From the NCBI RefSeq assembly GCF_003076755.1, contig NZ_QDKM01000004.1:186001-250000 (forward strand): a stretch of 64,000 bases of DNA, given 5' to 3'. The position numbers and the translations under genes are program-made. Each line of letters begins with the position of its first letter. Position 1 is the stretch's first letter. Below the pieces are notes generated by a model. That model did no database searches and was not told the origin of the DNA. It worked only from the letters and a program-made list of their open reading frames with translations. Source of the stretch: Pararhodobacter oceanensis. GTDB taxonomy: Bacteria > Pseudomonadota > Alphaproteobacteria > Rhodobacterales > Rhodobacteraceae. Of this stretch, positions 1-9,991 are shown piece after piece.

Positions 1-444
1 CGCCGGATGCATGAGCGGTTCGCGATGTTTGGCGGGCGCGCGGGTGGCTTGCTGAAGCAGATCACCCGCTCGGAGCAGATTGTCTATACGCCGATCAAGG
101 AAATCATCATGGAGCCGCCCTGGTTCAAGGGCCGTGTGGTTCTGGTTGGCGATGCCGCGCATGCTTCGACACCGTTCTGGGCGCAGGGTGCCTCGATGGC
201 GATCGAAGATGTGATCGTTCTTTACTGGCTGTTGCGCGAAAATCGGGATGTGCCGGATATTTTCAGCGAATGGCAAGAGCGCAGATTTGAGCGCTGTGCG
301 TTTGTCCAGAACGGATCGAAATCGACCGGGGTCAATGGCCATGCTGCGGGTCTGGAGGCGATGAACCGCGCGGCCGAACATATCCGCAACCATGCGCAAG
401 ACAATGTTAACAGTCGCTACGAGCGGCTCAATCAGCCGATTTGA
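1..444 (+). CDS. FAD-dependent monooxygenase, C-terminal part (cut by window edge)
   Basis: This is the end of a PHBH-fold aromatic hydroxylase. The reading frame is open to base 1, so the N-terminal dinucleotide-binding half lies outside the window. The GDAAH motif (bases 148-162) followed by PFWAQGASMAIED is the second FAD-binding signature of this family, which uses NAD(P)H and O2 to hydroxylate aromatic or polyketide-like substrates in the cytoplasm. The stop codon lies 10 bases before the start of the cupin gene, so the two are very likely in one operon with the two SnoaL-like genes and the TRAP permease that follow. The substrate cannot be read from this fragment. Confidence 0.85.
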   Translation, partial: RRMHERFAMFGGRAGGLLKQITRSEQIVYTPIKEIIMEPPWFKGRVVLVGDAAHASTPFWAQGASMAIEDVIVLYWLLRENRDVPDIFSEWQERRFERCAFVQNGSKSTGVNGHAAGLEAMNRAAEHIRNHAQDNVNSRYERLNQPI

Positions 445-454
445 GGGGCTATTC

Positions 455-1000
455 ATGACCAAACGACTTTCACCGCTGCGCCGCGTGGTCACGGGCCACA
501 ATGAACAGGGGCAAAGCATCATCATTGAGGACGGCGCGCCCCCGCGGGTGGCCAGGGTTCAGGCGCGGCCCGGCTATGCGATGGCCAATGTCTGGCGCAC
601 CGCCGCTTGCCCCAGCAATGTGCATGATGCCGACAGTATTCTGGAGCATAAAGGCGTGCTGCCGCCGAAACAGGGAACGGTGATCCGTGTGATCGACATT
701 CCGCCCGAGCCCAAAGACCCCGAGGAGCTGGAAAAAGTGCTGCATGCCACATTCCGCGAGCTTTATCCCGATGCCGATCACACCAAGGACAAGGCAGTTC
801 ATCAGGGGATGCATAAGACTGCGACGGTTGATTATGCCATTGTGCTTGCCGGGTCGATCACCGCGATCATGGATGAGGATGAGACGGTGTTGAATGCGGG
901 CGACATCCTGATCCAGCGCGGCACCAATCACGCGTGGTCCAACAGGTCGGAGGGTATGTGCCGCATCGCCTTTGTGCTGGTGGACGGGCAGTTTGAATGA
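455..1000 (+). CDS. Cupin-domain protein, 181 aa
   Basis: A single C-terminal cupin barrel (about residues 105-178) follows a less recognisable N-terminal part. Histidines 116, 120 and 159 sit where small cupins often hold a metal, but the canonical GxHxH motif is not clear. The ATG at 455 is chosen because GAGGGG lies 6 bases upstream and because an earlier start would overlap the monooxygenase. Cupins of this size in catabolic operons are often dioxygenases, isomerases or ligand-binding proteins; which applies here cannot be decided. It is translated right after the monooxygenase and is likely part of the same pathway. Confidence 0.75.
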   Translation: MTKRLSPLRRVVTGHNEQGQSIIIEDGAPPRVARVQARPGYAMANVWRTAACPSNVHDADSILEHKGVLPPKQGTVIRVIDIPPEPKDPEELEKVLHATFRELYPDADHTKDKAVHQGMHKTATVDYAIVLAGSITAIMDEDETVLNAGDILIQRGTNHAWSNRSEGMCRIAFVLVDGQFE

Positions 1001-1175
1001 GCCGGAGGTTTGCGCGACCCCGCGCGCCGAAGGCCCAGAGCCTGAATTTCGCGTGGTTATCTGCAGGACGGCGACCGGAGGGGGCGCGGCCATGGGGGCG
1101 CGCAGCATCGGTTCGGGCGACGGGGAAACCTTGCGGCGGGCCAGTGAGACAGACCTGAACACAACGGAGACGATA

Positions 1176-1595
1176 ATGCCGGATGCAGACAGCCATGAAG
1201 CCTATTTCCGCTCGGTTCTGACGGAGCTTTATGCGGGGAATTTCGAGCCTTTCAACGCCGCCATCGCCGACGACTATATTTGCCATACACCGGGGCGGAG
1301 CAGCATCGCTGGGGATTACCACGGCACCGAGCAGGCCGAGGTCAAACGCCCGAAAATGCGCGCCCTGACCGCGGGGAGTTTCAAGGTCAGAAAGCTGGGC
1401 GATATCTGTATTTCGGGTGATTGGGCGATGGTCCCGGTTGTCGTCTCCGCCGAGGCCGGTGACACGAAATTGGAGACGCCGGCTTTCGGGATCTGGCGGT
1501 TTCGCGGGGATAAGATCGTCGAGCATTGGGAGATGAATTTCGACCAATACGGGTTTGACGCCTTCGTCGCCGCGGCAGAAGCACAGGGCCGCTAG
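1176..1595 (+). CDS. SnoaL-like / NTF2-fold protein, copy 1 (139 aa)
   Basis: A small alpha+beta-barrel protein of the SnoaL/NTF2 superfamily, which includes polyketide cyclases, isomerases and dehydratases as well as non-enzymatic members. The C-terminal half has the typical 'FGIWRF-(D/G)-IVEHW' strand pair ending in a 'DQYxFDxFVAAAEA' helix. The start at 1176 is supported by CGGAGA a few bases upstream; the frame is open further upstream but would overlap the cupin. It is a tandem paralogue of the next gene, with matching length and roughly 40-45% identity by eye. About 175 bases separate it from the cupin, so it may have its own signal or processing site. Confidence 0.75.
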   Translation: MPDADSHEAYFRSVLTELYAGNFEPFNAAIADDYICHTPGRSSIAGDYHGTEQAEVKRPKMRALTAGSFKVRKLGDICISGDWAMVPVVVSAEAGDTKLETPAFGIWRFRGDKIVEHWEMNFDQYGFDAFVAAAEAQGR

Positions 1596-1597
1596 GG

Positions 1598-2017
1598 GTG
1601 GCGCTCGATCCGCAGGGCATCGCACAGTTGCGACAGGTGCTTTCCCAGCTTTATGACGGCAATGTCGCACCGTTCGAAGCGGCGCGGGCGGATAGCTATA
1701 CGCTGCATGTTCCCGGACAGAGCCGTATCGCCGGACGCTACCAAGGGGCCGCCGAAACCGCGCGGTTCATCGCCAGGCTGTCAGAGCTTAGTGGCGGAAC
1801 TTTCGCCGTCACGCGTACCGCAGAAATCTGCATCTCGGGGAACTGGGCGATGGTTCCGCTGCGGGTCACTGCCGCGGTCGATGATCTGCGGCTGGACATG
1901 CCGGCCTTCGGGATCTGGCGCTTTGACGGTGCGGAAATCGTTGAACACTGGACACTTCATATGGATCAATATGCGTTCGATAGATTCGTCGCAGCTGCGG
2001 AGGCACCATTGCCATGA
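1598..2017 (+). CDS. SnoaL-like / NTF2-fold protein, copy 2 (139 aa)
   Basis: This is the second of two tandem SnoaL-like paralogues. It starts with GTG only two bases after the stop of copy 1 and ends overlapping the ATG of the TRAP permease (ATGA), so it is translationally coupled on both sides. It shares with copy 1 the blocks 'PFxAAxADxY', 'EICISGxWAMVP', 'PAFGIWRF' and 'IVEHW'. Equal lengths and tight coupling suggest a duplication that could yield a heterodimer or two specificities on related intermediates. Substrate and catalytic residues are not assigned. Confidence 0.75.
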   Translation: MALDPQGIAQLRQVLSQLYDGNVAPFEAARADSYTLHVPGQSRIAGRYQGAAETARFIARLSELSGGTFAVTRTAEICISGNWAMVPLRVTAAVDDLRLDMPAFGIWRFDGAEIVEHWTLHMDQYAFDRFVAAAEAPLP

Positions 2018-3915
2018 GGGCATTACTGGACAGGCTGCACGTCATCTCGCATGGCATCACCGAAAAGATCGCCGCGCTGGGGGTTATCGGCATCCTCGGG
2101 ATTGGCTTTGTGACCGTCCTCGACGTGCTTTTGCGCTTCTTTTTCAACAATCCAATCGACGGGCTGAATGAAATCACCGCGCCGCTGCTGGCGCTGGGGG
2201 TCGCGGCCTGCCTGCCTGCCGGTGCCTCGGGCCGGGTCAATATCACCATCGACTTTATGCAAACTCTGGTCGGGACGCTCGGCTTTGCCTGGCTGCGTGC
2301 CTTGGGCTCGGGGTTGTTGTTGATCTTCCTGACCGTGGTGGTCTGGCGGCTGTTTGCGCTGGCCGAGCGCTACACGATGGTGGGGCGGACCTCGAACCTT
2401 TTGGAACTGCCGGTCGGGCTGATCCTCTATGTGGTGACCAGCGTGGTGGCGCTGACGCTGTTTGTCCAGCTGTTGCAGTTTGCGCTGCAGTTTTCGGATG
2501 CCTTCCGCTTAAGCCGCCGCGTCGGATACACGATCTGCGGCCTTTGCCTGCTGTTGATCCTCGGCTTTTTCGTGGTGCCTGCGCCCTATCAAGCCGTGGC
2601 GGCGGTGTTTACCGGAATGCAGCCGGCGTTTCTGGCGTTAACCTGTTTCGGGCTGATGTGGCTGATGGTGATTTTCTCGGTTCCGGTGGGGGCGGCGACC
2701 GGTCTGGCGGGGCTCTTGGGGTCGATGGTCATTCTGGGCTCAAACGCGGGGATGACCATGTTCGGGGGCCGCGTTCACCATATGCTGTTCAACGAAAGCC
2801 TCGCGGTGCTGCCGCTGTTTCTGATGATGGGGTCGTTTGCGACGGTTGCCGGCATGTCCTCCGAGATCTACCGCTTTGCCAATTCCGCAATCGGTCACCT
2901 TCGCGGCGGATTGGCGATGGCGACGATTCTGGGGTCGGCGGGGTTTGGTGCGCTGACCGGATCATCGCTGGCCACCTCGGCAACCATTGGCAAGGTCGCC
3001 TTGCCGGAAATGGCCAAGCGAAACTATAGCCGTTCATTGGCCGCGGGAACCGTGGCGGCGGGCGGCACGCTGGGGCAGCTTATCCCGCCCTCGACGGTGA
3101 TTGTGATCTATGCGCTGCTCGCCGAAGCCTCGATCGGCACGCTGTTTATCGCGACGATTGTTCCGGCCTTGCTTGCGGTCTGCCTGTATCTTGTCGCGAT
3201 CTCGATCACCGTGAAACTGTCGCCCGGCGGTGTCCCCAAGGGGGAACGGGTGCCGCGGATGCAGATGATGCGCGATTTCGGCAATGGCTGGCAGGTTATC
3301 GTGCTGATCACGCTGGTGATTGGCGGGATCTATACCGGCGTGTTCACCGAGACCGAGGCCGCGTCGGTTGGTGCCATCGCGGCCTTTGGCTTCGCAATTG
3401 CGCGCGGCAAGATCAATCGCGATACGATCTGGGCGGTGATGCGCGAGACGACCTCGACCATCGCGTTGATATATGTGCTGATCTTCGGGGCGACCAATTT
3501 CTCGTTCATGGTCGGCATATCCGGTGTCCCTGACCTGATGGTCGCGGGTATGACCGCGCTGACCACGACGCCGGTGCTGATCGTGATCATGATTGCCGCG
3601 ATCTATCTGGTTCTGGGCACGGTGATGGATACATTCGCGATTATGATCATCACCTTGCCGGTGTTCCTGCCGCTGGTTGAATCACTGGGGTTCGATCCGA
3701 TCTGGTGGGGCATTCTGACCATCTGTCTGGTCGAGATCGGCATGATCACCCCGCCGTTCGGATTGAATCTGTTCATCATGAAATCCATCGATCCGCATCT
3801 GAAATTGACCGATGTTTACAAAGGCGTCGCGCCCTTTGTTGTCGCAGATGTGGTGAAAATCGCGCTGTTGATTGGGTTTCCGATCATCGTGTTGTGGCTG
3901 CCCGGCACGCGGTGA
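2014..3915 (+). CDS. TRAP transporter fused permease (DctQ-DctM), 633 aa
   Basis: An inner-membrane TRAP (tripartite ATP-independent periplasmic) transporter permease in which the small DctQ-type subunit (about residues 15-170) is fused to the large DctM-type subunit (about 190-630). The DctM part shows the usual glycine-rich segments such as 'TGSSLATSATIGKVALPEM' and 'AGGTLGQLIPPSTVIVIY'. The family imports carboxylates and other organic anions using a sodium gradient and a periplasmic DctP binding protein. No dctP is in the window; it may lie upstream of base 1. The start overlaps the previous stop. Its position inside the catabolic operon suggests it imports the substrate degraded by the neighbouring enzymes. 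Confidence 0.92.
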   Translation: MRALLDRLHVISHGITEKIAALGVIGILGIGFVTVLDVLLRFFFNNPIDGLNEITAPLLALGVAACLPAGASGRVNITIDFMQTLVGTLGFAWLRALGSGLLLIFLTVVVWRLFALAERYTMVGRTSNLLELPVGLILYVVTSVVALTLFVQLLQFALQFSDAFRLSRRVGYTICGLCLLLILGFFVVPAPYQAVAAVFTGMQPAFLALTCFGLMWLMVIFSVPVGAATGLAGLLGSMVILGSNAGMTMFGGRVHHMLFNESLAVLPLFLMMGSFATVAGMSSEIYRFANSAIGHLRGGLAMATILGSAGFGALTGSSLATSATIGKVALPEMAKRNYSRSLAAGTVAAGGTLGQLIPPSTVIVIYALLAEASIGTLFIATIVPALLAVCLYLVAISITVKLSPGGVPKGERVPRMQMMRDFGNGWQVIVLITLVIGGIYTGVFTETEAASVGAIAAFGFAIARGKINRDTIWAVMRETTSTIALIYVLIFGATNFSFMVGISGVPDLMVAGMTALTTTPVLIVIMIAAIYLVLGTVMDTFAIMIITLPVFLPLVESLGFDPIWWGILTICLVEIGMITPPFGLNLFIMKSIDPHLKLTDVYKGVAPFVVADVVKIALLIGFPIIVLWLPGTR

Positions 3916-3943
3916 GGGGCAGGGGCCAGTATCAGGAGGTGAT

Positions 3944-4618
3944 ATGCCGAAATTGACGCTCTATGTCGCGCCGGGCTCTTGCGCCCGGGTGCCAACAATC
4001 GCGCTGGAGGAAATCGGCGTCCCCTTTGCCACCGAGCTGGTGCGGTTCAAGGCGCAGCAGCACAAGTCCGAGGCTTACCGCGCGCTCAATCCCAAGGGCA
4101 AGGTTCCGGTGCTGGTGGTCGATAGCACGCCCCTGACCGAGAATGTCGCGATCCTGAGCTGGTTAAACTCGCGCTTTCCCGACGCCGCGCTGCTTCCGCC
4201 TGTCGAGACGCCGTTTGCGCAGGCCCAGCAACTCTCGGATCTGGCGTTTGTCTCATCGACGCTGCATCCGATCGTCACCCGCATTCGCGTGCCCTATCTA
4301 TTCGGCTCGACCCCCGAGATCCAAGCGGATGTCCGCGAAAAGGGCATGACTGCGATGCAGCCCTTCGCGCAACTGCTGGAGGAGAGGTTCGATAAGGGGC
4401 GGTGGTGGTATGGCGAGAGCTGGTCGATCGTCGATGCCTATCTCTACTGGGTCTGGTGGCGGATTGTCGGCGCGGGGTTTCCGGTTGAGTGCTTTCCGCG
4501 CCTGCAGGACTTCGCTCAACGCATCGAGCGCCGCCCATCGGTGATGCGGGCTTTGGCGCGCGAGGCCGATCAGGAGCAGATGCTCAATGACGAGGGGCTA
4601 TCGCTCAATTTGACCTAG
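3944..4618 (+). CDS. Glutathione S-transferase family protein, 224 aa
   Basis: A cytosolic GST: N-terminal thioredoxin fold with 'LYVAPGSCARVPTIALEEIG', the cis-proline strand 'GKVPVLVV' and 'LTENVAIL' for glutathione gamma-glutamyl binding, then an all-helical C-terminal domain. The Cys/Ser next to the first helix (PGSCAR) resembles beta-class bacterial GSTs. The ATG at 3944 has a strong AGGAGG five bases away. It follows the TRAP permease by 28 bases on the same strand. The end overlaps the end of the convergent TetR gene by 14 bases. In such operons GSTs open rings, isomerise or detoxify electrophilic intermediates; the reaction here is unknown. Confidence 0.9.
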   Translation: MPKLTLYVAPGSCARVPTIALEEIGVPFATELVRFKAQQHKSEAYRALNPKGKVPVLVVDSTPLTENVAILSWLNSRFPDAALLPPVETPFAQAQQLSDLAFVSSTLHPIVTRIRVPYLFGSTPEIQADVREKGMTAMQPFAQLLEERFDKGRWWYGESWSIVDAYLYWVWWRIVGAGFPVECFPRLQDFAQRIERRPSVMRALAREADQEQMLNDEGLSLNLT

Positions 4619-5252
4619 CGTTTGGCGCGCGGATGAGCAGGTCGATGATCGCATCGGCGTGCGACTGAAGAGCCGCTTCGGAACTGATATCGCCGCCTTC
4701 CAGCGCATTGGTAAGCGCATAGAGCGCCATGGGAAATGAGCCGCCATGGGTGATCATAAAGAAGATCGTGCGGCTTGAGACATCCGGTATTGCCCCCTCG
4801 GCCTGGGCGCCGTCGATCAGGTCTTTGAGCAATTGGTAGAACGGCCCCACGAGGTTTTCTTTCAAAAACGCGCCGCGGGTGCCATCCTCGCCACCATCGT
4901 GAACAATGATGCGGCTCATCTGCGGCCAGCGCGCCGAGGCGGTAATGAAGGCGCGAATGAACGCCTTGAGTTCTTCGGTTTTGCTACCGCCGTCAAAGGC
5001 ATTGGCCGCGATCAGGTCTTTGGAAAAACACTCGACAAGATGGGTGATGGCCGCGATCCAGAGCGCATCCTTGGTGCCGAAATAATACCGCGCCAGCCGT
5101 TTGTCCGCCCCTGCCGCCTCGGCGATTTGACTGAGCGAGACGCCGTCAAAGCCACGTTTGGCAAAAAGATCAATCGAGGCGCGCAGCAGCGACAGTTTCA
5201 AATCACTACTGCTGTCGCCTTGCGGGCGTCCGGGCTTTCGGTCTGCAGTCAC
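4605..5252 (-). CDS. TetR/AcrR-family transcriptional regulator, about 215 aa
   Basis: An N-terminal helix-turn-helix (about residues 18-62, with 'GVSLSQIAEAAGADKRLARYYFG') is followed by a helical ligand-binding domain, the standard TetR layout. I chose the GTG at 5252 because AAGAGG lies 8 bases upstream and the protein then has the usual N-terminal length; a TTG at 5321 in the same frame would give 238 residues but has no clear ribosome site and would overlap the operator region. It is transcribed away from the DAPG-hydrolase-like gene, and two copies of a 16-bp palindrome lie between them. That arrangement is typical of a local repressor controlling itself and the divergent gene. Confidence 0.88.
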   Translation of the reverse strand: MTADRKPGRPQGDSSSDLKLSLLRASIDLFAKRGFDGVSLSQIAEAAGADKRLARYYFGTKDALWIAAITHLVECFSKDLIAANAFDGGSKTEELKAFIRAFITASARWPQMSRIIVHDGGEDGTRGAFLKENLVGPFYQLLKDLIDGAQAEGAIPDVSSRTIFFMITHGGSFPMALYALTNALEGGDISSEAALQSHADAIIDLLIRAPNARSN

Positions 5253-5323
5253 GGTCAATGCCTCTTTGCAAGGGTAGGTCTGGTGCAGCCTATACAATGC
5301 GGCGGGGGAGAAATGAAGCAAGT

Positions 5324-5339
5324 TTCCCCACTCGGGGAA
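5324..5339. promoter_or_regulatory. Palindromic operator, copy 1
   Basis: TTCCCCACTCGGGGAA is a 6+4+6 perfect inverted repeat in the gap between the TetR gene and the divergent gene at 5409. It matches the second copy (5356-5371) at 13 of 16 positions, and the two centres are 32 bases apart, about three helical turns. Binding by the adjacent TetR protein is inferred. Confidence 0.65.
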
Positions 5340-5347
5340 TTATTTCG

Positions 5348-5376
5348 TTGACATATTCCCCATACGTGGAATATCA
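5348..5376 (+). promoter_or_regulatory. Predicted sigma70-type promoter of the gene at 5409
   Basis: A consensus -35 TTGACA (5348-5353) is followed after 17 bases by ATATCA (5371-5376). The spacer contains operator copy 2, so a bound repressor would block polymerase directly. The match is by eye only. Confidence 0.55.
5356..5371. promoter_or_regulatory. Palindromic operator, copy 2
   Basis: TTCCCCATACGTGGAA matches copy 1 at 13 of 16 bases. It is embedded in a longer inverted repeat ATATTCC-N8-GGAATAT (5353-5374) and sits between the predicted -35 and -10 elements. Confidence 0.65.
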
Positions 5377-5408
5377 GGCTGGAAATGGTTTTGAAAAGGA
5401 TACCGGCT

Positions 5409-6134
5409 ATGAAGAAAACGATCCTCGCGGCAGTCGCCGTGGCAGCGGTAGGTGTCGCCGCTTTCGGTGTGCCGCCCTTTACCGGCCAGCCCACAGCGGG
5501 ATTTGCCGAGGGCGAGGCCGGTTTTGAAAGCGGCGTGCGGCGGTTGCCGAACGGTGTGGTCGAGGTCTCGGCCCTCACCCCGATGCCGGGGGTAAGCGCG
5601 GAGATGGTCGGCTGGTGGTTTGGCTCTTACCTGCAAACAACCGAACACTATCAGCGGTGGTTTCCGCAGGCCCATGTCTGGATGGATTGGGAGAACAAGA
5701 CGCCCGATGAATATATCGGCGCCAGCCATCTGGTGCATGAATATATCGGTGACGACCTCGCCATGTTGCGCATTCAATTCGTCCCCGCCGAAGAGATCCT
5801 TGGCGAGGTTGATCTGGGCGAAGACGATGTTGCGGTCTGTGCGCGGGTCGGCTTGCTTGAGGAGCCGCTCAATGTCGGCAGGATGTGTCACATCATTCGC
5901 AACACCGAGGATGGCGCGGAAATGCGCAGCCGTTTCTGGCTGGGCTTCGTCGCGGAACGCGATGGCAATGAGCAGGTCGCATCCTTAACTGGTCTGGTCG
6001 CGAATACCTATCTGGTGCGACAGCTGACCCTGAAGAATGACGCCGCAACCGCGCTGATGCAGCATTGTCTGGATGAAATGACCATTCTTGCCGGCTTCCT
6101 GCCCGGCCTTTTTGCGCAGGAAACCGCCACGTAA
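5409..6134 (+). CDS. DAPG hydrolase (PhlG)-like protein with N-terminal signal, 241 aa
   Basis: The protein resembles the 2,4-diacetylphloroglucinol hydrolase family, zinc enzymes that cleave a carbon-carbon bond to remove an acetyl group from acylated phloroglucinols. Seen here: 'EMVGWWFGSYLQTTEHYQRW', H80, E111, and an HxxxE pair H219/E223 near the C-terminus. From memory, PhlG binds zinc through H129, E160, H270 and E274; the H-to-E (31) and HxxxE spacings agree with that. Residues 1-23 look like a signal peptide or membrane anchor (KK then a long hydrophobic stretch), which is unusual for PhlG. AAAAGGA lies 8 bases upstream of the ATG. It is divergent from the TetR gene. Confidence 0.7.
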   Translation: MKKTILAAVAVAAVGVAAFGVPPFTGQPTAGFAEGEAGFESGVRRLPNGVVEVSALTPMPGVSAEMVGWWFGSYLQTTEHYQRWFPQAHVWMDWENKTPDEYIGASHLVHEYIGDDLAMLRIQFVPAEEILGEVDLGEDDVAVCARVGLLEEPLNVGRMCHIIRNTEDGAEMRSRFWLGFVAERDGNEQVASLTGLVANTYLVRQLTLKNDAATALMQHCLDEMTILAGFLPGLFAQETAT

Positions 6135-6170
6135 TCCCTTAGACCCTGCCAGCATAGATTGGAATTTCCG

Positions 6171-7009
6171 ATGGCTGAAATTGAAACGACACGGGCCGAT
6201 ATTCGCGCGCTGACCGGTGTGCATCTTTACCACAACTATATGTCAAATTGCTCGCAACGGGTGTCTCTGGCCCTGCGCGAAAAGGGCGTGGATTACGTCA
6301 GCCACCATATCGACCTGCAGCGGCAAGAGAATCTAACCGATGCGTTTGTTGCGCTGAACCCGAATAAAGTTGTGCCGGTTTTGGTTCACGATGGCCGCAC
6401 CTATGTCGAGTCGAATGATATCATCGACTATATAGATAAGGCGTTTGCGGGGCCGAAATTGATCCCTGATGATCCTCAGATTGTCGCTTTGACCGAGGCG
6501 TTGCTCTCCGCCTCGGCAGCGCTGCAAGACACGATCAAGTTTCTGACCTATGAGTTTTTGATGAAGCCGATCTCGTTGAAATCCGCGCGGAAAAACAATG
6601 CGCTGGAGGCCGAGGAGGTGGGCTCGGATCGCCACCGGTTCCTGACCGAGTTTCTGGCGCCCGGCGGTTTCACCAACGACCGTATCACCGCTGAGGTTGC
6701 GGCGCTTTCGGCGGCGTTTGATATGCTCGAGCACCGGTTGACCGATACGCCATGGCTGAGCGGCGCTACCTATGGTCTTGCCGATATCTCGTGGTTCCCC
6801 AATCTGCGCCGCGCCAAAATGATGCGCTATCCGCTGAACGTCATCCCGCATTGGCCGCATGGTTTGAGAGGGCGAGCGCGCGGGCCTCGATCAAAGCCTC
6901 GATCCTGCAGACCGAACAACTGGCCCCGCGCATGTTCATGGCAGCCTACAGCCGTTACCGCGCGTTGCGGGGAACCTCGATCTCGGCATATTTGGGTGCG
7001 TCGGGATAG
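6171..7009 (+). pseudogene. Glutathione S-transferase family gene with a -1 frameshift near base 6835
   Basis: The frame starting at 6171 gives a normal GST N-terminal domain ('MSNCSQRVSLALREKGVDY', 'NPNKVVPVLVHDG', 'VESNDIIDYID') and most of the helical domain up to 'RRAKMMRYPL'. From there the family-like ending ('ERHPALAAWFERASAR' and so on) continues in another frame and ends at 7009. One missing G after CTG at about 6834-6836 would restore a continuous protein of about 279 residues. As written, the first frame runs on to 7082 with an unrelated tail. It is either a genuine recent inactivation or a sequencing error. It sits downstream of the PhlG-like gene and probably in its operon. Confidence 0.8.
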
Positions 7010-7397
7010 TTTTTTGCAGGGCGCGGCGAGCAATTCGCAAGCTAAAGCGGCGTCTTCGCCAAACAGACGCGTGCGGGCGTAGATGCGGTTTCGCGTCGCG
7101 CCGCGCGCCTTGACCCATAATACAGCGAACGGTCGGTAGCTGCGCCTCGTCGTCACCTCGGACGAGAGGGCGCGTTATGCTCGGTCGGTCATTAGGCAAG
7201 ATCAGCGCAGCCGAATAGCGCCTCTCGCAGTATCCCCGCGACATTCATATCGCGCCAGAGACCACCTCGGGCTTTAGGACATGCCACGGCTCATGCGCCA
7301 AGCATGGACCGCCCGCGTTCAGCAGCCATAACGCAACCCGCTGAAATACCGTCGCTACATTGAGCGAGGGTGGTATCAACTGTGTTTGAAAGTGAAG
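7010..7397. other. Non-coding stretch between the frameshifted GST and tRNA-Gln
   Basis: I see no gene with plausible start, ribosome site and family resemblance, no strong hairpin and no repeat shared with the rest of the window. It forms the right edge of the accessory cluster and could contain degraded sequence. Confidence 0.5.
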
Positions 7398-7472
7398 TGG
7401 CTGGGGCGGTAGGATTCGAACCTACGATACACGGTACCAAAAACCGATGCCTTACCGCTTGGCTACGCCCCA
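7398..7472 (-). tRNA. tRNA-Gln (anticodon TTG)
   Basis: On the minus strand a TGGGGCG acceptor strand (7472-7466) pairs with CGCCCCA (7408-7402). The D arm (AGCCAAGCGGTAAGGC), anticodon loop TTTTGGT with TTG in place, the T arm with GGTTCGAATCC and an encoded CCA end are all present, and the identity matches bacterial Gln tRNAs. The closing base pair of the anticodon stem is a T-T mismatch. Confidence 0.95.
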
Positions 7473-7710: not shown

Positions 7711-8877
7711 ATGGACTGGGACGTGATTGTGCTGGGCGCGGGCGCGGCGGGGTTGATGGCGGGGATCGAGGCGGCGCGGCGCGGGCGGCGGGTCTTGGTG
7801 CTCGATCATGCCAAGAAGCCGGGCGAGAAGATCCGTATTTCCGGCGGCGGGCGGTGCAATTTCACCAATCTGCATATCGCGCCCGAGCGGTTCCTGTCGC
7901 AAAATCCGCGCTTCGCGCTTTCGGCGCTGTCGCGCTATACGCAGCAGGATTTCATCGCGCGGGTTAACCTTAACGGCATCGCCTGGCATGAGAAAACCCT
8001 CGGGCAGCTGTTCTGCGACGGCTCGGCGCGGCAGATTGTCGATATGCTCTTGCGTGATCTTCATGCGGCGGGGGGCGAGTTGCGGCTTGGGGTGCGGGTC
8101 GAGGCGGTGCATGCCGGGTTTCGTGTCGAGACCTCCGAGGGGCCGCTGACCGCCGCCTCGGTGATTGTCGCGACCGGTGGCAAGTCGATTCCGAAGATGG
8201 GCGCCAGCGGATTTGGCTATGACATCGCCGAGCAATTCGGGCTGCGGTTGGTGCCGACGCGCGCGGGATTGGTGCCGTTGACCTTCACCGACACGCAGCT
8301 GGACTGGATGCGGCCCTTGGCCGGTGTTGCGGTGCCGGCGCGGGTCGGGGTGGCGGGGCAGAAGATCAGCTTTGACGAAGGGTTGTTGTTTACCCATCGC
8401 GGATTGTCCGGCCCGTCGATCCTGCAGATCTCGAGCTATTGGCGCGAGGGGCAGGCGATTACCGTGGATCTGGCGCCTGACCGGGATATTGCGGCGGAAG
8501 CGCAGGCGGCGCGGGCGCAGCATGGCAAGAAGGATCTGGTGAACTCGCTGGATCTACCTGAGAAGCTGGCGCGCAGCCTGACCGAAGGCGCCGGTCTTTC
8601 GGGGCGATTAGCCGATCAATCGAAGAAATCCCTCGCACTTCTGGCCGATGGGGTGCATCGCCAGCATCTGGTGCCCGCCGGAACCGAGGGCTACCGCACC
8701 GCCGAGGTCACGTTGGGCGGTGTGGACACCCGCGATCTGGATGCCAAGACGATGGAGGCGCGCAAGACGCCCGGCCTCTATTTCATCGGTGAGGTTGTGG
8801 ATGTAACCGGCTGGCTGGGCGGGTATAACTTCCAATGGGCGTGGTCGTCGGGCTGGGCGGCGGGGCAGGTGGCCTGA
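7711..8877 (+). CDS. NAD(P)/FAD-dependent oxidoreductase, HI0933/YhiN family, 388 aa
   Basis: A flavoprotein of the HI0933-like family. The N-terminal Rossmann motif 'VLGAGAAGLMAG' is followed by the family-specific 'KIRISGGGRCNFTN' loop; a central insert contains 'THRGLSGPSILQIS', and the C-terminus carries 'GEVVDVTGWLGGYNFQWAW', which closes the FAD site. Length is typical. These proteins are cytoplasmic and widely conserved, but their reaction is poorly known. The start has GAGG 5 bases upstream. It stands alone between tRNA-Gln and trmJ, and a short intergenic repeat (8896-8924) lies just after its stop. Confidence 0.92.
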   Translation: MDWDVIVLGAGAAGLMAGIEAARRGRRVLVLDHAKKPGEKIRISGGGRCNFTNLHIAPERFLSQNPRFALSALSRYTQQDFIARVNLNGIAWHEKTLGQLFCDGSARQIVDMLLRDLHAAGGELRLGVRVEAVHAGFRVETSEGPLTAASVIVATGGKSIPKMGASGFGYDIAEQFGLRLVPTRAGLVPLTFTDTQLDWMRPLAGVAVPARVGVAGQKISFDEGLLFTHRGLSGPSILQISSYWREGQAITVDLAPDRDIAAEAQAARAQHGKKDLVNSLDLPEKLARSLTEGAGLSGRLADQSKKSLALLADGVHRQHLVPAGTEGYRTAEVTLGGVDTRDLDAKTMEARKTPGLYFIGEVVDVTGWLGGYNFQWAWSSGWAAGQVA

Positions 8878-8895
8878 AGAACGCCCCGGCCCGCT

Positions 8896-8924
8896 CATCT
8901 GTCCAGAAATATCCTGGGGGTGAG
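8896..8924 (+). repeat. Short post-stop repeat, copy A
   Basis: One of five related sequences built around CATCTGTCCAGAAATATCC. It starts 19 bases after the stop of the flavoprotein gene. Copies D and A share almost 26 bases; B, C and E are more diverged. Confidence 0.6.
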
Positions 8925-8991
8925 CCCGGAACGGGCGAGGGGGCAACGCCCCATTAACCTTTACTGATCATCTGTCTGGCGCGGGCTTTTG

Positions 8992-9127
8992 CCCGGGCCG
9001 CGCCCGACCCTGGGTGGGCGCCCCGCCTTTGCCACGACGCGGCACACTCCAAAGCACTCGCGCCAGTCGAGCCTCAAACACCATCGCCAATGCGCCCTCC
9101 CGGGGGGAGGGTCGGGCGCGGCCCGGG
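8992..9127. repeat. Palindromic-ended intergenic element, copy 1 (136 bp)
   Basis: The ends are a perfect 20-bp inverted repeat, CCCGGGCCGCGCCCGACCCT and its complement at 9108-9127. A second, inverted copy lies at 27884-28013. The two share about 25-30 bases at each end while the centres differ. No transposase is present. This is a MITE-like or REP-like element. The whole gap 8878-9259 otherwise shows no gene. Confidence 0.7.
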
Positions 9128-9259
9128 GTGCCCCCGTGCCAGACAGTGAATCGAAAGCGACCATACCACCCGCATCCACTCTTGCGCGCGCGCATCCGGC
9201 GCGGTATGCGCGCGCTCATGGGATCGAGCTTGCGAGAATTGACAACCGAGAGGGGCTCT

Positions 9260-9991
9260 GTGCCCAGTGTGGTGCTGGTGCGCCCGCAGATGGGGCAGAA
9301 CATCGGCGCGGCGGCGCGGGCGATGCTGAACTTTGGGTTCGAGCATATGCGCCTGGTTGCGCCGCGCGACGGCTGGCCCAACCCCGAGGCGACGGCAATG
9401 GCCTCGGGCGCCAGTGTGGTGCTTGATCATGCGGGGCAATTCCCTGATCTGGGCACGGCGCTGGCCGATTGCGATTATGTCTATGCGACCACCGCCCGCA
9501 GCCGTGGGCTGGTCAAGCCGGTGCTGACGCCCGAGGCGGCGATGGCCGAGGCGCGGGCGATGATCGCGGCTGGCAAGAAGGTCGCGGTGCTGTTCGGGCC
9601 TGAGCGCGCGGGGCTGGAGAACGACGATGTCGCCCATGCCAATGCGATCATCACCGTGCCGGTAAACCCCGGTTTTTATTCGCTCAATCTGGCGCAATGC
9701 GTGCTGTTGATGGCCTATGAATATGCGCGGCAAACCAGCGATACGCCCGGCGCGCGGCTGGAACTGGCGGGCGCAGATCTGGCGACCGCGCAGGATGTGC
9801 AGCATCTGGGCGATCATTTTGAAGAGCGGCTCAGCAAGGCCGGCTTCTTTTTCCCCGAGGATAAAGCGCCGAGCATGAAGCTGACGCTGCGCAATATGTT
9901 CAGCCGCTGGGGGCTGACCCGCACCGAGGTGCAGATCCTCCACGGCGTGTTGCGCAAACTGGTTGGCCGCGACAGCTCCGGCGGCTCTTGA
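9260..9991 (+). CDS. trmJ: tRNA (cytidine/uridine-2'-O-)-methyltransferase TrmJ-type (SpoU family), 243 aa
   Basis: A SPOUT-fold methyltransferase that uses SAM to methylate the 2'-O of tRNA position 32. Signatures seen: 'VVLVRPQMGQNIGAAARAML' at the N-terminus, 'ALFGPERAGLEND'-like motif 2 (VLFGPERAGLEND) and the knot motif 'NPGFYSLNLAQCV', plus a C-terminal extension typical of TrmJ. I chose the GTG at 9260 because GAGAGGGG lies 4 bases before it and homologues begin right before VVLVRP; the open frame upstream runs through the repeat element and looks non-coding. It is followed by ctaA after 47 bases. Confidence 0.9.
   Translation: MPSVVLVRPQMGQNIGAAARAMLNFGFEHMRLVAPRDGWPNPEATAMASGASVVLDHAGQFPDLGTALADCDYVYATTARSRGLVKPVLTPEAAMAEARAMIAAGKKVAVLFGPERAGLENDDVAHANAIITVPVNPGFYSLNLAQCVLLMAYEYARQTSDTPGARLELAGADLATAQDVQHLGDHFEERLSKAGFFFPEDKAPSMKLTLRNMFSRWGLTRTEVQILHGVLRKLVGRDSSGGS

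Follow-up and report, generated by a model that had tools for sequence, protein, structure and literature searches.

At the left-hand end of the 64-kb stretch C4:186001-250000 (here called the window) of the 4.08-Mb Pararhodobacter oceanensis genome, catabolic and transport genes adjoin a gene for a hydrolase resembling the 2,4-diacetylphloroglucinol (DAPG) hydrolase PhlG, an enzyme that inactivates this antibiotic of root bacteria by hydrolysing it to monoacetylphloroglucinol (MAPG) and acetate. The sequence makes it more likely that two gene sets meet here: unit A, with genes for ring cleavage and uptake, which extends from 6.6 kb before the window to window position 4618, and unit B, composed of a TetR regulator, the PhlG-like protein and the second of two glutathione S-transferase-like proteins (GST1 and GST2). 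We give a probability of about 0.6 to the reading that these are adjacent and separately controlled units, A being used for uptake and ring cleavage and B being an inducible TetR-PhlG detoxification unit with a periplasmic hydrolase. The genes of unit B are regarded as separate because their operator is a different one, because the gene ends at the junction are convergent and overlap, and because TetR-PhlG pairs and the catabolic genes recur apart from each other. The preliminary description had read all genes as one set for the uptake and breakdown of an acylated aromatic or polyketide-like compound. Uptake and breakdown of an aromatic acid fits the half with the TRAP permease, the hydroxylase and the cupin protein, upstream of which dctP and ring-cleavage genes were found, and appears not to extend to the PhlG-like protein, TetR and GST2. 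The two units that replace it can be tested separately, and exact candidate operator sites are available for both. Gene content, the two sets of palindromes, the separate recurrence of A and B, the conserved residues and the predicted fold and anchor of the PhlG-like protein were computed directly.

The TetR gene of unit B ends at 4605, within the convergent GST1 gene (end at 4618), and is divergent from the PhlG-like gene; its start is uncertain, either GTG at 5252 or TTG at 5321. A 20-bp palindrome, operator B (TATTCYAC-N4-GTRGAATA), is found in the TetR-PhlG intergenic sequences of relatives, usually in two copies. When scored with a matrix for which four relatives, but not the window, supplied seven sites, the site at 5354-5373 ranked first with 22.4; no other site in the 64 kb exceeded 11.7, and 20 simulated windows gave at most 14.1. 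Two sites each, scoring from 14.5 to 29.6, are also present in the three loci with a TetR orthologue that had been held out (L079, L078 and L082). Among the loci whose neighbours were examined, 21 lack the orthologue; 14 of these were scanned, and their best score was 14.6 (L058), away from the PhlG gene. A TTGACA box ends directly before operator B copy 2, and no operator B was found at the promoters of unit A. Genome-wide, the operator B pattern matches perfectly at one place, this promoter, with a one-mismatch copy at window 5323-5340, and at up to one mismatch at 12 places compared with 2 for the reversed control. A divergent TetR gene with a putative operator palindrome in between corresponds to the arrangement of PhlH and PhlG. 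The TetR protein of unit B would act as a repressor that sits on the two palindromes, which overlap the promoter of the PhlG-like gene, and an acylated phenolic ligand would release it, making unit B an inducible detoxification unit. Both the assignment of readers to palindromes and the direction of regulation are put forward here as predictions. A search for kinship of this TetR with PhlH returned no entry named PhlH among 40 PDB matches, several of them generically named, and the two may still be kin.

Unit A has two divergent promoter regions, one between the amidohydrolase and the second fumarylacetoacetate (FAA) hydrolase and the other between dctP and the hydroxylase. Another palindrome, operator A (TTCYYTTTRAAARGAA), is present once in the former and twice in the latter. 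Genome-wide, the operator A pattern has perfect matches at these three places only and one further place with one mismatch (control, 0 matches). A matrix derived from the two sites between dctP and the hydroxylase scores the third site at 18.7, whereas ten simulated runs reached at most 16.2. At the promoter of unit B, only a weak stretch resembling operator A was found, at 5384-5402.

Within the family, the PhlG-like protein is present in one of 198 genomes, the window's own, and PF18089 matches were obtained in 9 of 385 genomes of the class. Among 72,556 plasmid records 20 encode it, six of which are of Sulfitobacter pontiacus with about 72% identity. In two Sulfitobacter records the gene is accompanied by a divergent TetR gene (product 66% identical to that of the window), and of unit A only a TRAP permease is matched, with 24% identity and at a distance of about 6 kb. 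When alignment A1 was run against 84,980 species genomes, at least 24 loci were obtained, a lower bound since two peptide patterns were used; 21 belong to Alpha- (9) or Gammaproteobacteria (12), and many of the genera are known from the sea. Neighbouring genes were surveyed in 28 loci besides the window (29 with it), leaving out L073 and L078, from the same genomes as L061 and L060, and the distant, unanchored L054, L055, L056 and L043. A TetR protein 52-66% identical to that of the window is encoded near PhlG in seven of the 28, all among the 13 alphaproteobacterial loci, and TetR, operator and PhlG recur in these seven without unit A; TetR-PhlG pairs of this kind include those of Sulfitobacter plasmids, Yoonia and Shimia. 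The broad TetR group is represented in 13 of the 29 loci (window counted) and another TetR group in four. Five of the 13 are gammaproteobacterial, with only 23-25% identity to the TetR of the window. In Shewanella and Vibrio (L076, L077, L083, L085 and L086) the PhlG-like gene is immediately followed by such a distant TetR gene, and only weak sites resembling operator B were found, two of which, in Vibrio, lie about 0.2 kb before PhlG (12.5 in L083, 9.4 in L085). No orthologue of the hydroxylase, cupin, SnoaL, DctQM or GST1 proteins was detected in the 33 other PhlG loci (31 distinct), where the matches to unit A were weak (DctQM 24% in L042; GST1 26% in L070 and 34%, partial, in L089).

A metallo-beta-lactamase-fold hydrolase gene was also seen beside the PhlG-like gene in five of the 29 loci (L082 at 8844-9887, L060, L079, L081 and L089), and lies between TetR and PhlG in L060, L079 and L082. 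The L060 and L079 sequences have an N-terminal hydrophobic stretch, and Pfam was run on the L082 copy only.

Clusters of the unit A type were sought in the family through the gene for its two-domain vicinal oxygen chelate (VOC) protein, which is present in five of 198 genomes, the window's own included. In three of the other four (L062, L104 and L105), a span of 19.5 kb also holds the FAD hydroxylase (about 34% identity), DctP (32-35%) and a fused DctQM of almost full length (42-43%); in L106, the remaining one, the hydroxylase is present and there is no TRAP match. GST1 relatives are encoded near the VOC, hydroxylase and DctQM genes in L104 (54%) and L105 (47%), and matches to the FAA hydrolases are weak (25-27%). 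Neither PhlG nor its TetR was found in any of these four clusters. The cupin gene occurs in eight of 198 family genomes, and its loci besides L062 hold parts of the set only: DctP, a partial DctQM and the amidohydrolase in L065, a partial DctQM and DctP in L068, and the cupin gene alone in the remainder, plus a GST match in L063 and L067. At 1e-60 the hydroxylase was found in three of 198 family genomes. For SnoaL-like protein 2, no relative was obtained from the other 197 family genomes (limit 1e-12) or from plasmids (1e-5); DctQM gave none in plasmids at 1e-100, and the cupin protein no match in viral contigs. When the cluster was searched at the DNA level in 18 genomes of the genus, the matches listed were mostly to the TRAP permease. 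The preliminary description had suggested searching Rhodobacterales for a conserved gene order of these families; no genome besides the window's own was seen to hold both halves. The combined set was thus not seen to co-occur elsewhere, and for its separate transcription the indications come from sequence rather than from expression.

The PhlG-like protein scored 142.7 bits against PF18089 (gathering cut-off 22.7). Its best solved relative by sequence is phloretin hydrolase (5.5e-19), and PhlG (3hwp) matched at 4.2e-15. The four metal ligands (H, E, H, E) and the catalytic His align with 3hwp and are present in 33 of 33 rows of alignment A3, which leaves out L089 (a stop in the matched stretch) and L093 (partial); we take their roles to be those known from the PhlG structure. 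The model (predicted local distance difference test, pLDDT, 87.9) starts with a helix at 2-19 followed by a loose linker. Its fold matches phloretin hydrolase (5xey, Z 20.0) and PhlG (3hwp, Z 19.3), other Bet v1-like proteins reaching at most 12.8; among the structural alignment rows only these two stand above the general Bet v1 level. The hydrophobic N-terminus is common to 27 rows and missing in six more distant ones, for which the upstream frames of L055, L056, L091 and L092 were inspected. Cys160 is present in 27 of 27 anchored and none of the six unanchored rows, and Cys144 in 26 of 27 and six of six, respectively; the anchored rows represent 25 distinct genomes, two of them counted twice, and the counts ignore kinship. 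In the model the two cysteines fall on adjacent strands (141-149 and 154-166). From the cysteine pattern and these strands we infer a Cys144/Cys160 disulfide and hence a periplasmic domain. The protein is accordingly read as an inducible, periplasm-facing C-C hydrolase: the N-terminal helix would hold it in the inner membrane with its domain toward the periplasm, where it would split the C-C bond that joins an acyl group to an aromatic ring. No match to the type III polyketide synthase family PF00195 was obtained in the genome at E 0.001, and no PhlD-type gene was present among the neighbours searched, the former making self-made phloroglucinol of the Pseudomonas type unlikely.

The preliminary description had let unit A begin at the window edge and suggested looking upstream for dctP and ring-cleavage enzymes. 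Directly upstream are in fact dctP, an extradiol-type dioxygenase, two FAA hydrolases, an amidohydrolase and another TetR gene, which strengthens the case for an aromatic acid being taken up and broken down. In L010, the 10-kb stretch preceding the window (subtracting 10000 from an L010 position gives the window position), a gamma-glutamyltransferase gene and an SBF-like transporter gene come first. They are followed on the minus strand by the VOC protein, one FAA hydrolase and the amidohydrolase, on the plus strand by the second FAA hydrolase and TetR (L010:7422-8084), and finally by dctP on the minus strand, divergent from the FAD hydroxylase. DctP (6.4e-36) completes the TRAP set of DctP, DctQ and DctM. 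The best solved relative of the FAD hydroxylase is 6-hydroxynicotinate 3-monooxygenase (1.4e-34). In the C-terminal domain of the VOC protein H, H and E align with the extradiol dioxygenases 3b59 and 2zi8, and are presumably the iron ligands of type I extradiol dioxygenases. The amidohydrolase matches gamma-resorcylate decarboxylase (PDB 2dvt, 1.8e-55), and the two align at the E-x-H, H, H and D positions, whose roles we assume to be as in that type of enzyme; its best match is instead 3nur (3.6e-57), named only 'Amidohydrolase'. The two SnoaL-like genes (1176-2017) are tandem copies, 53% identical. Unit A is a credible uptake and ring-cleavage cluster with its beginning outside the window. 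As to likely substrate and order of reactions, a small, probably carboxylated aromatic compound would be imported by DctP and the fused DctQM and hydroxylated by the FAD hydroxylase. The carboxyl group would probably be removed by the amidohydrolase of the gamma-resorcylate decarboxylase type and the ring opened by extradiol cleavage through the VOC protein. The two FAA hydrolases would hydrolyse the ring-cleavage product, and GST1, the cupin and the SnoaL proteins may carry out helper or isomerisation steps.

Several points weigh against this account. The genome-wide pattern of operator A was written from its own three sites, so that only its rarity elsewhere is informative. Unlike the matrix, the genome-wide pattern of operator B was written with the window site in view. 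Operator A was absent from the related clusters L062, L104, L105 and L106 (best 9.5) and is therefore lineage-specific or weakly conserved, and that the upstream TetR reads it is a guess. A promoter scan detected no consensus sigma-70 promoter in 3900-7400, and copy 1 of operator B (5323-5340) also scores as a terminator-like hairpin. The lopsided stretch resembling operator A at 5384-5402, just before the PhlG-like start, matches the dctP/hydroxylase region at 14 of 18 bases, 15 shuffles having given at most 13, and may mean cross-control of the PhlG-like gene; with the matrix from that region it scores 13.4, inside the simulated range of 9.9 to 16.2, and it was taken as chance since it is non-palindromic and contains the probable ribosome-binding site. 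With 58.7 bits, the PhlG-like protein missed the NCBIfam equivalog cut-off for PhlG, which is 600. For the VOC protein as a named extradiol enzyme, the best equivalog reached 43.2 bits vs the HpaD cut-off of 321.4. The identities of the A-type relatives are only 25-54%, which indicates the same kind of cluster rather than proven orthology. GST2 stands directly behind PhlG in just one of the 28 other loci (Yoonia maricola, 56%), and is broken here.

That the whole region nevertheless serves one pathway appears improbable. In the periplasm, the PhlG-like enzyme would then remove the acyl group from an acylated phenol; the phenolic product would enter the cell through the TRAP system, and ring cleavage would finish its breakdown. 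A periplasm-facing deacylase ahead of a TRAP importer is chemically sensible, the two sets are adjacent in one genome, unit A really contains uptake and ring-cleavage genes, and the weak stretch at 5384-5402 precedes the PhlG-like start. However, the main operators differ and the gene ends are convergent; PhlG is found in one of 198 genera of the family and A-type clusters, sought through the VOC gene, in three of the 197 others, without PhlG, and the 33 other PhlG loci (31 distinct) have no orthologous A set.

Within unit B itself, it is possible, and on balance doubtful, that the enzyme does not serve defence at all and scavenges another acylated aromatic or polyketide, or quenches it as a signal, with TetR sensing the compound. 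The identity of just 24-29% to PhlG and phloretin hydrolase, the spread across Alpha- and Gammaproteobacteria and the metallo-beta-lactamase-fold neighbour in five of 29 loci would suit such a role, whereas the aligned catalytic set is that of two enzymes which cleave acyl-phloroglucinols. Rather unlikely, in turn, is a patchwork of unrelated cargo at a tRNA gene, in which only TetR and PhlG of unit B are linked and GST2 is decaying. It would agree with the tRNA-Gln gene at 7398-7472, whose 3' end points toward the genes, with the left flank, where only short scattered matches to five genus relatives were found, and with the broken frame of GST2; against it, no repeat of 14 tRNA bases was present within C4:166001-250000 (no search for an integrase was made), and the Yoonia locus keeps TetR, PhlG and GST2 together. 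Two separately controlled units remain our preferred reading.

Of greatest interest in this region is the PhlG variant that carries an anchor and has an operator of its own. With PhlG of Pseudomonas fluorescens (3hwp) the window protein shares the Pfam family, the fold and the aligned metal and catalytic residues, and an adjoining TetR gene with an operator (here predicted) in the intergenic region (PMC8003664). It differs in its N-terminal membrane anchor and an extra cysteine, and in that its gene is not part of a phloroglucinol biosynthesis cluster. The Pseudomonas repressor PhlH acts on phlG by binding to the DNA between phlH and phlG, from which DAPG releases it (PMC8003664, PMC7062750 and PMC11878095). 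The closest solved relative by both sequence and fold is phloretin hydrolase of Mycobacterium abscessus (5xey, 5xe5), to which identity in fold alignments is, however, only 24-29%. Rv1775 of M. tuberculosis has also been proposed as a PhlG-type C-C hydrolase (PMC8562490). In the open-licence literature on PF18089, on diacetylphloroglucinol with Sulfitobacter, on anchored or periplasmic PhlG and on marine PhlG, no description of the anchored group was found. As a wider and distinctly tentative proposal, Alpha- and Gammaproteobacteria, many of them marine, might carry anchored, periplasm-facing PhlG-type hydrolases with an added disulfide, which in Alphaproteobacteria are often accompanied by a TetR of their own together with a conserved operator (7 of the 13 loci examined besides the window). 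Each would form an autonomous, inducible protection from acylated phenolic antibiotics that other organisms make. If such a family does destroy acylated phenols outside the cytoplasm, this would put an antibiotic-inactivating enzyme that is otherwise familiar from Pseudomonas PhlG in a new setting, and would hint at acylated phenolic compounds in the sea. Operator B offers a direct route to the inducer and therefore to the substrate.

Table 1. Features at the left-hand end of the window (window positions)
Feature	Position	Strand	Evidence
Unit A, FAD-dependent hydroxylase, 3' part	1..444	+	Pfam FAD_binding_3 1.1e-28
Unit A, cupin protein	452..1000	+	Cupin_2 3.4e-7
Unit A, SnoaL-like protein 1	1176..1595	+	SnoaL_2 6.8e-7
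Unit A, SnoaL-like protein 2	1598..2017	+	SnoaL_2 9e-7
Unit A, fused DctQM TRAP permease, 633 aa	2014..3915	+	DctQ 3.2e-12 and DctM 2.1e-84, one frame
Unit A, first GST-like gene (GST1), last gene of the operon	3944..4618	+	GST_N_2 3.6e-13
Unit B, TetR regulator, convergent with GST1	4605..5252	-	TetR_N 4.1e-11
Unit B, operator copy 1, palindrome with 1 mismatch	5323..5340	.	also scores as terminator-like hairpin
TTGACA, likely -35 box of the PhlG-like gene	5348..5353	+	sequence
Unit B, operator copy 2, directly behind the -35 box	5354..5373	.	relatives-only matrix score 22.4
Unit B, predicted PhlG-like C-C hydrolase with N-terminal membrane anchor, 241 aa	5409..6134	+	DAPG_hydrolase PF18089 1.7e-41
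Unit B, second GST-like gene (GST2), broken frame	6171..7009	+	GST_N_3 8.5e-19
tRNA-Gln (ttg), right-hand border of the region, outside both units	7398..7472	-	

All families named earlier (hydroxylase, cupin, two SnoaL, DctQM, two GST, TetR and DAPG hydrolase) were recovered by Pfam profile matches, and some gene limits had to be revised. The hydroxylase gene is cut by the window edge, its frame starting 708 bp before the window (L010:9293). The start of the PhlG-like gene, previously set at 5385, is most likely at 5409 by alignment with relatives. GST2 belongs to the family assigned to it and does not form a single frame: compared with the intact Yoonia maricola copy (L082), the homology changes frame between about 6845 and 6875, and 7009 is the end of the second frame.

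Clusters sharing part of unit A are also known from sphingomonads. Novosphingobium aromaticivorans pNL2 and N. pentaromativorans pLA3 have a VOC protein 43% and 45% identical, respectively; in pNL2 the hydroxylase (39%), a cupin protein (30%) and FAA hydrolases are encoded nearby, and in pLA3 the VOC gene is near FAA hydrolases and an amidohydrolase (29%). In contrast to unit A, no TRAP transporter is annotated in the 25 kb compared, pNL2 having a TonB receptor and both plasmids major facilitator superfamily (MFS) transporters, and there is no match to the SnoaL pair. No description combining TRAP, extradiol, cupin and FAA hydrolase genes in one cluster was found in the open-licence literature.

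To the right of unit B, the 3' end of tRNA-Gln faces the genes of the unit, and no island border could be drawn from tRNA copies, no repeat of 14 of its bases having been found within C4:166001-250000. The sequence to its left gave only short scattered matches in the five genus relatives compared. tRNA-Gln followed by an HI0933-like gene was seen in at least seven genus relatives. Between two conserved genes, window 8995-9146 holds a repeat, about 150 bp long, which is found at over 20 further sites of the genome, with shorter matches in genus relatives. Further upstream, L009:180-7826 (C4:166180-173826) may be another catabolic set, with a VanA-type Rieske oxygenase, a pyridine-nucleotide reductase and a pentapeptide-repeat protein; a NitT/TauT-like ATP-binding cassette (ABC) transporter, a short-chain dehydrogenase/reductase (SDR), an alpha/beta hydrolase and a flavodoxin-like protein were recognised there by eye only.

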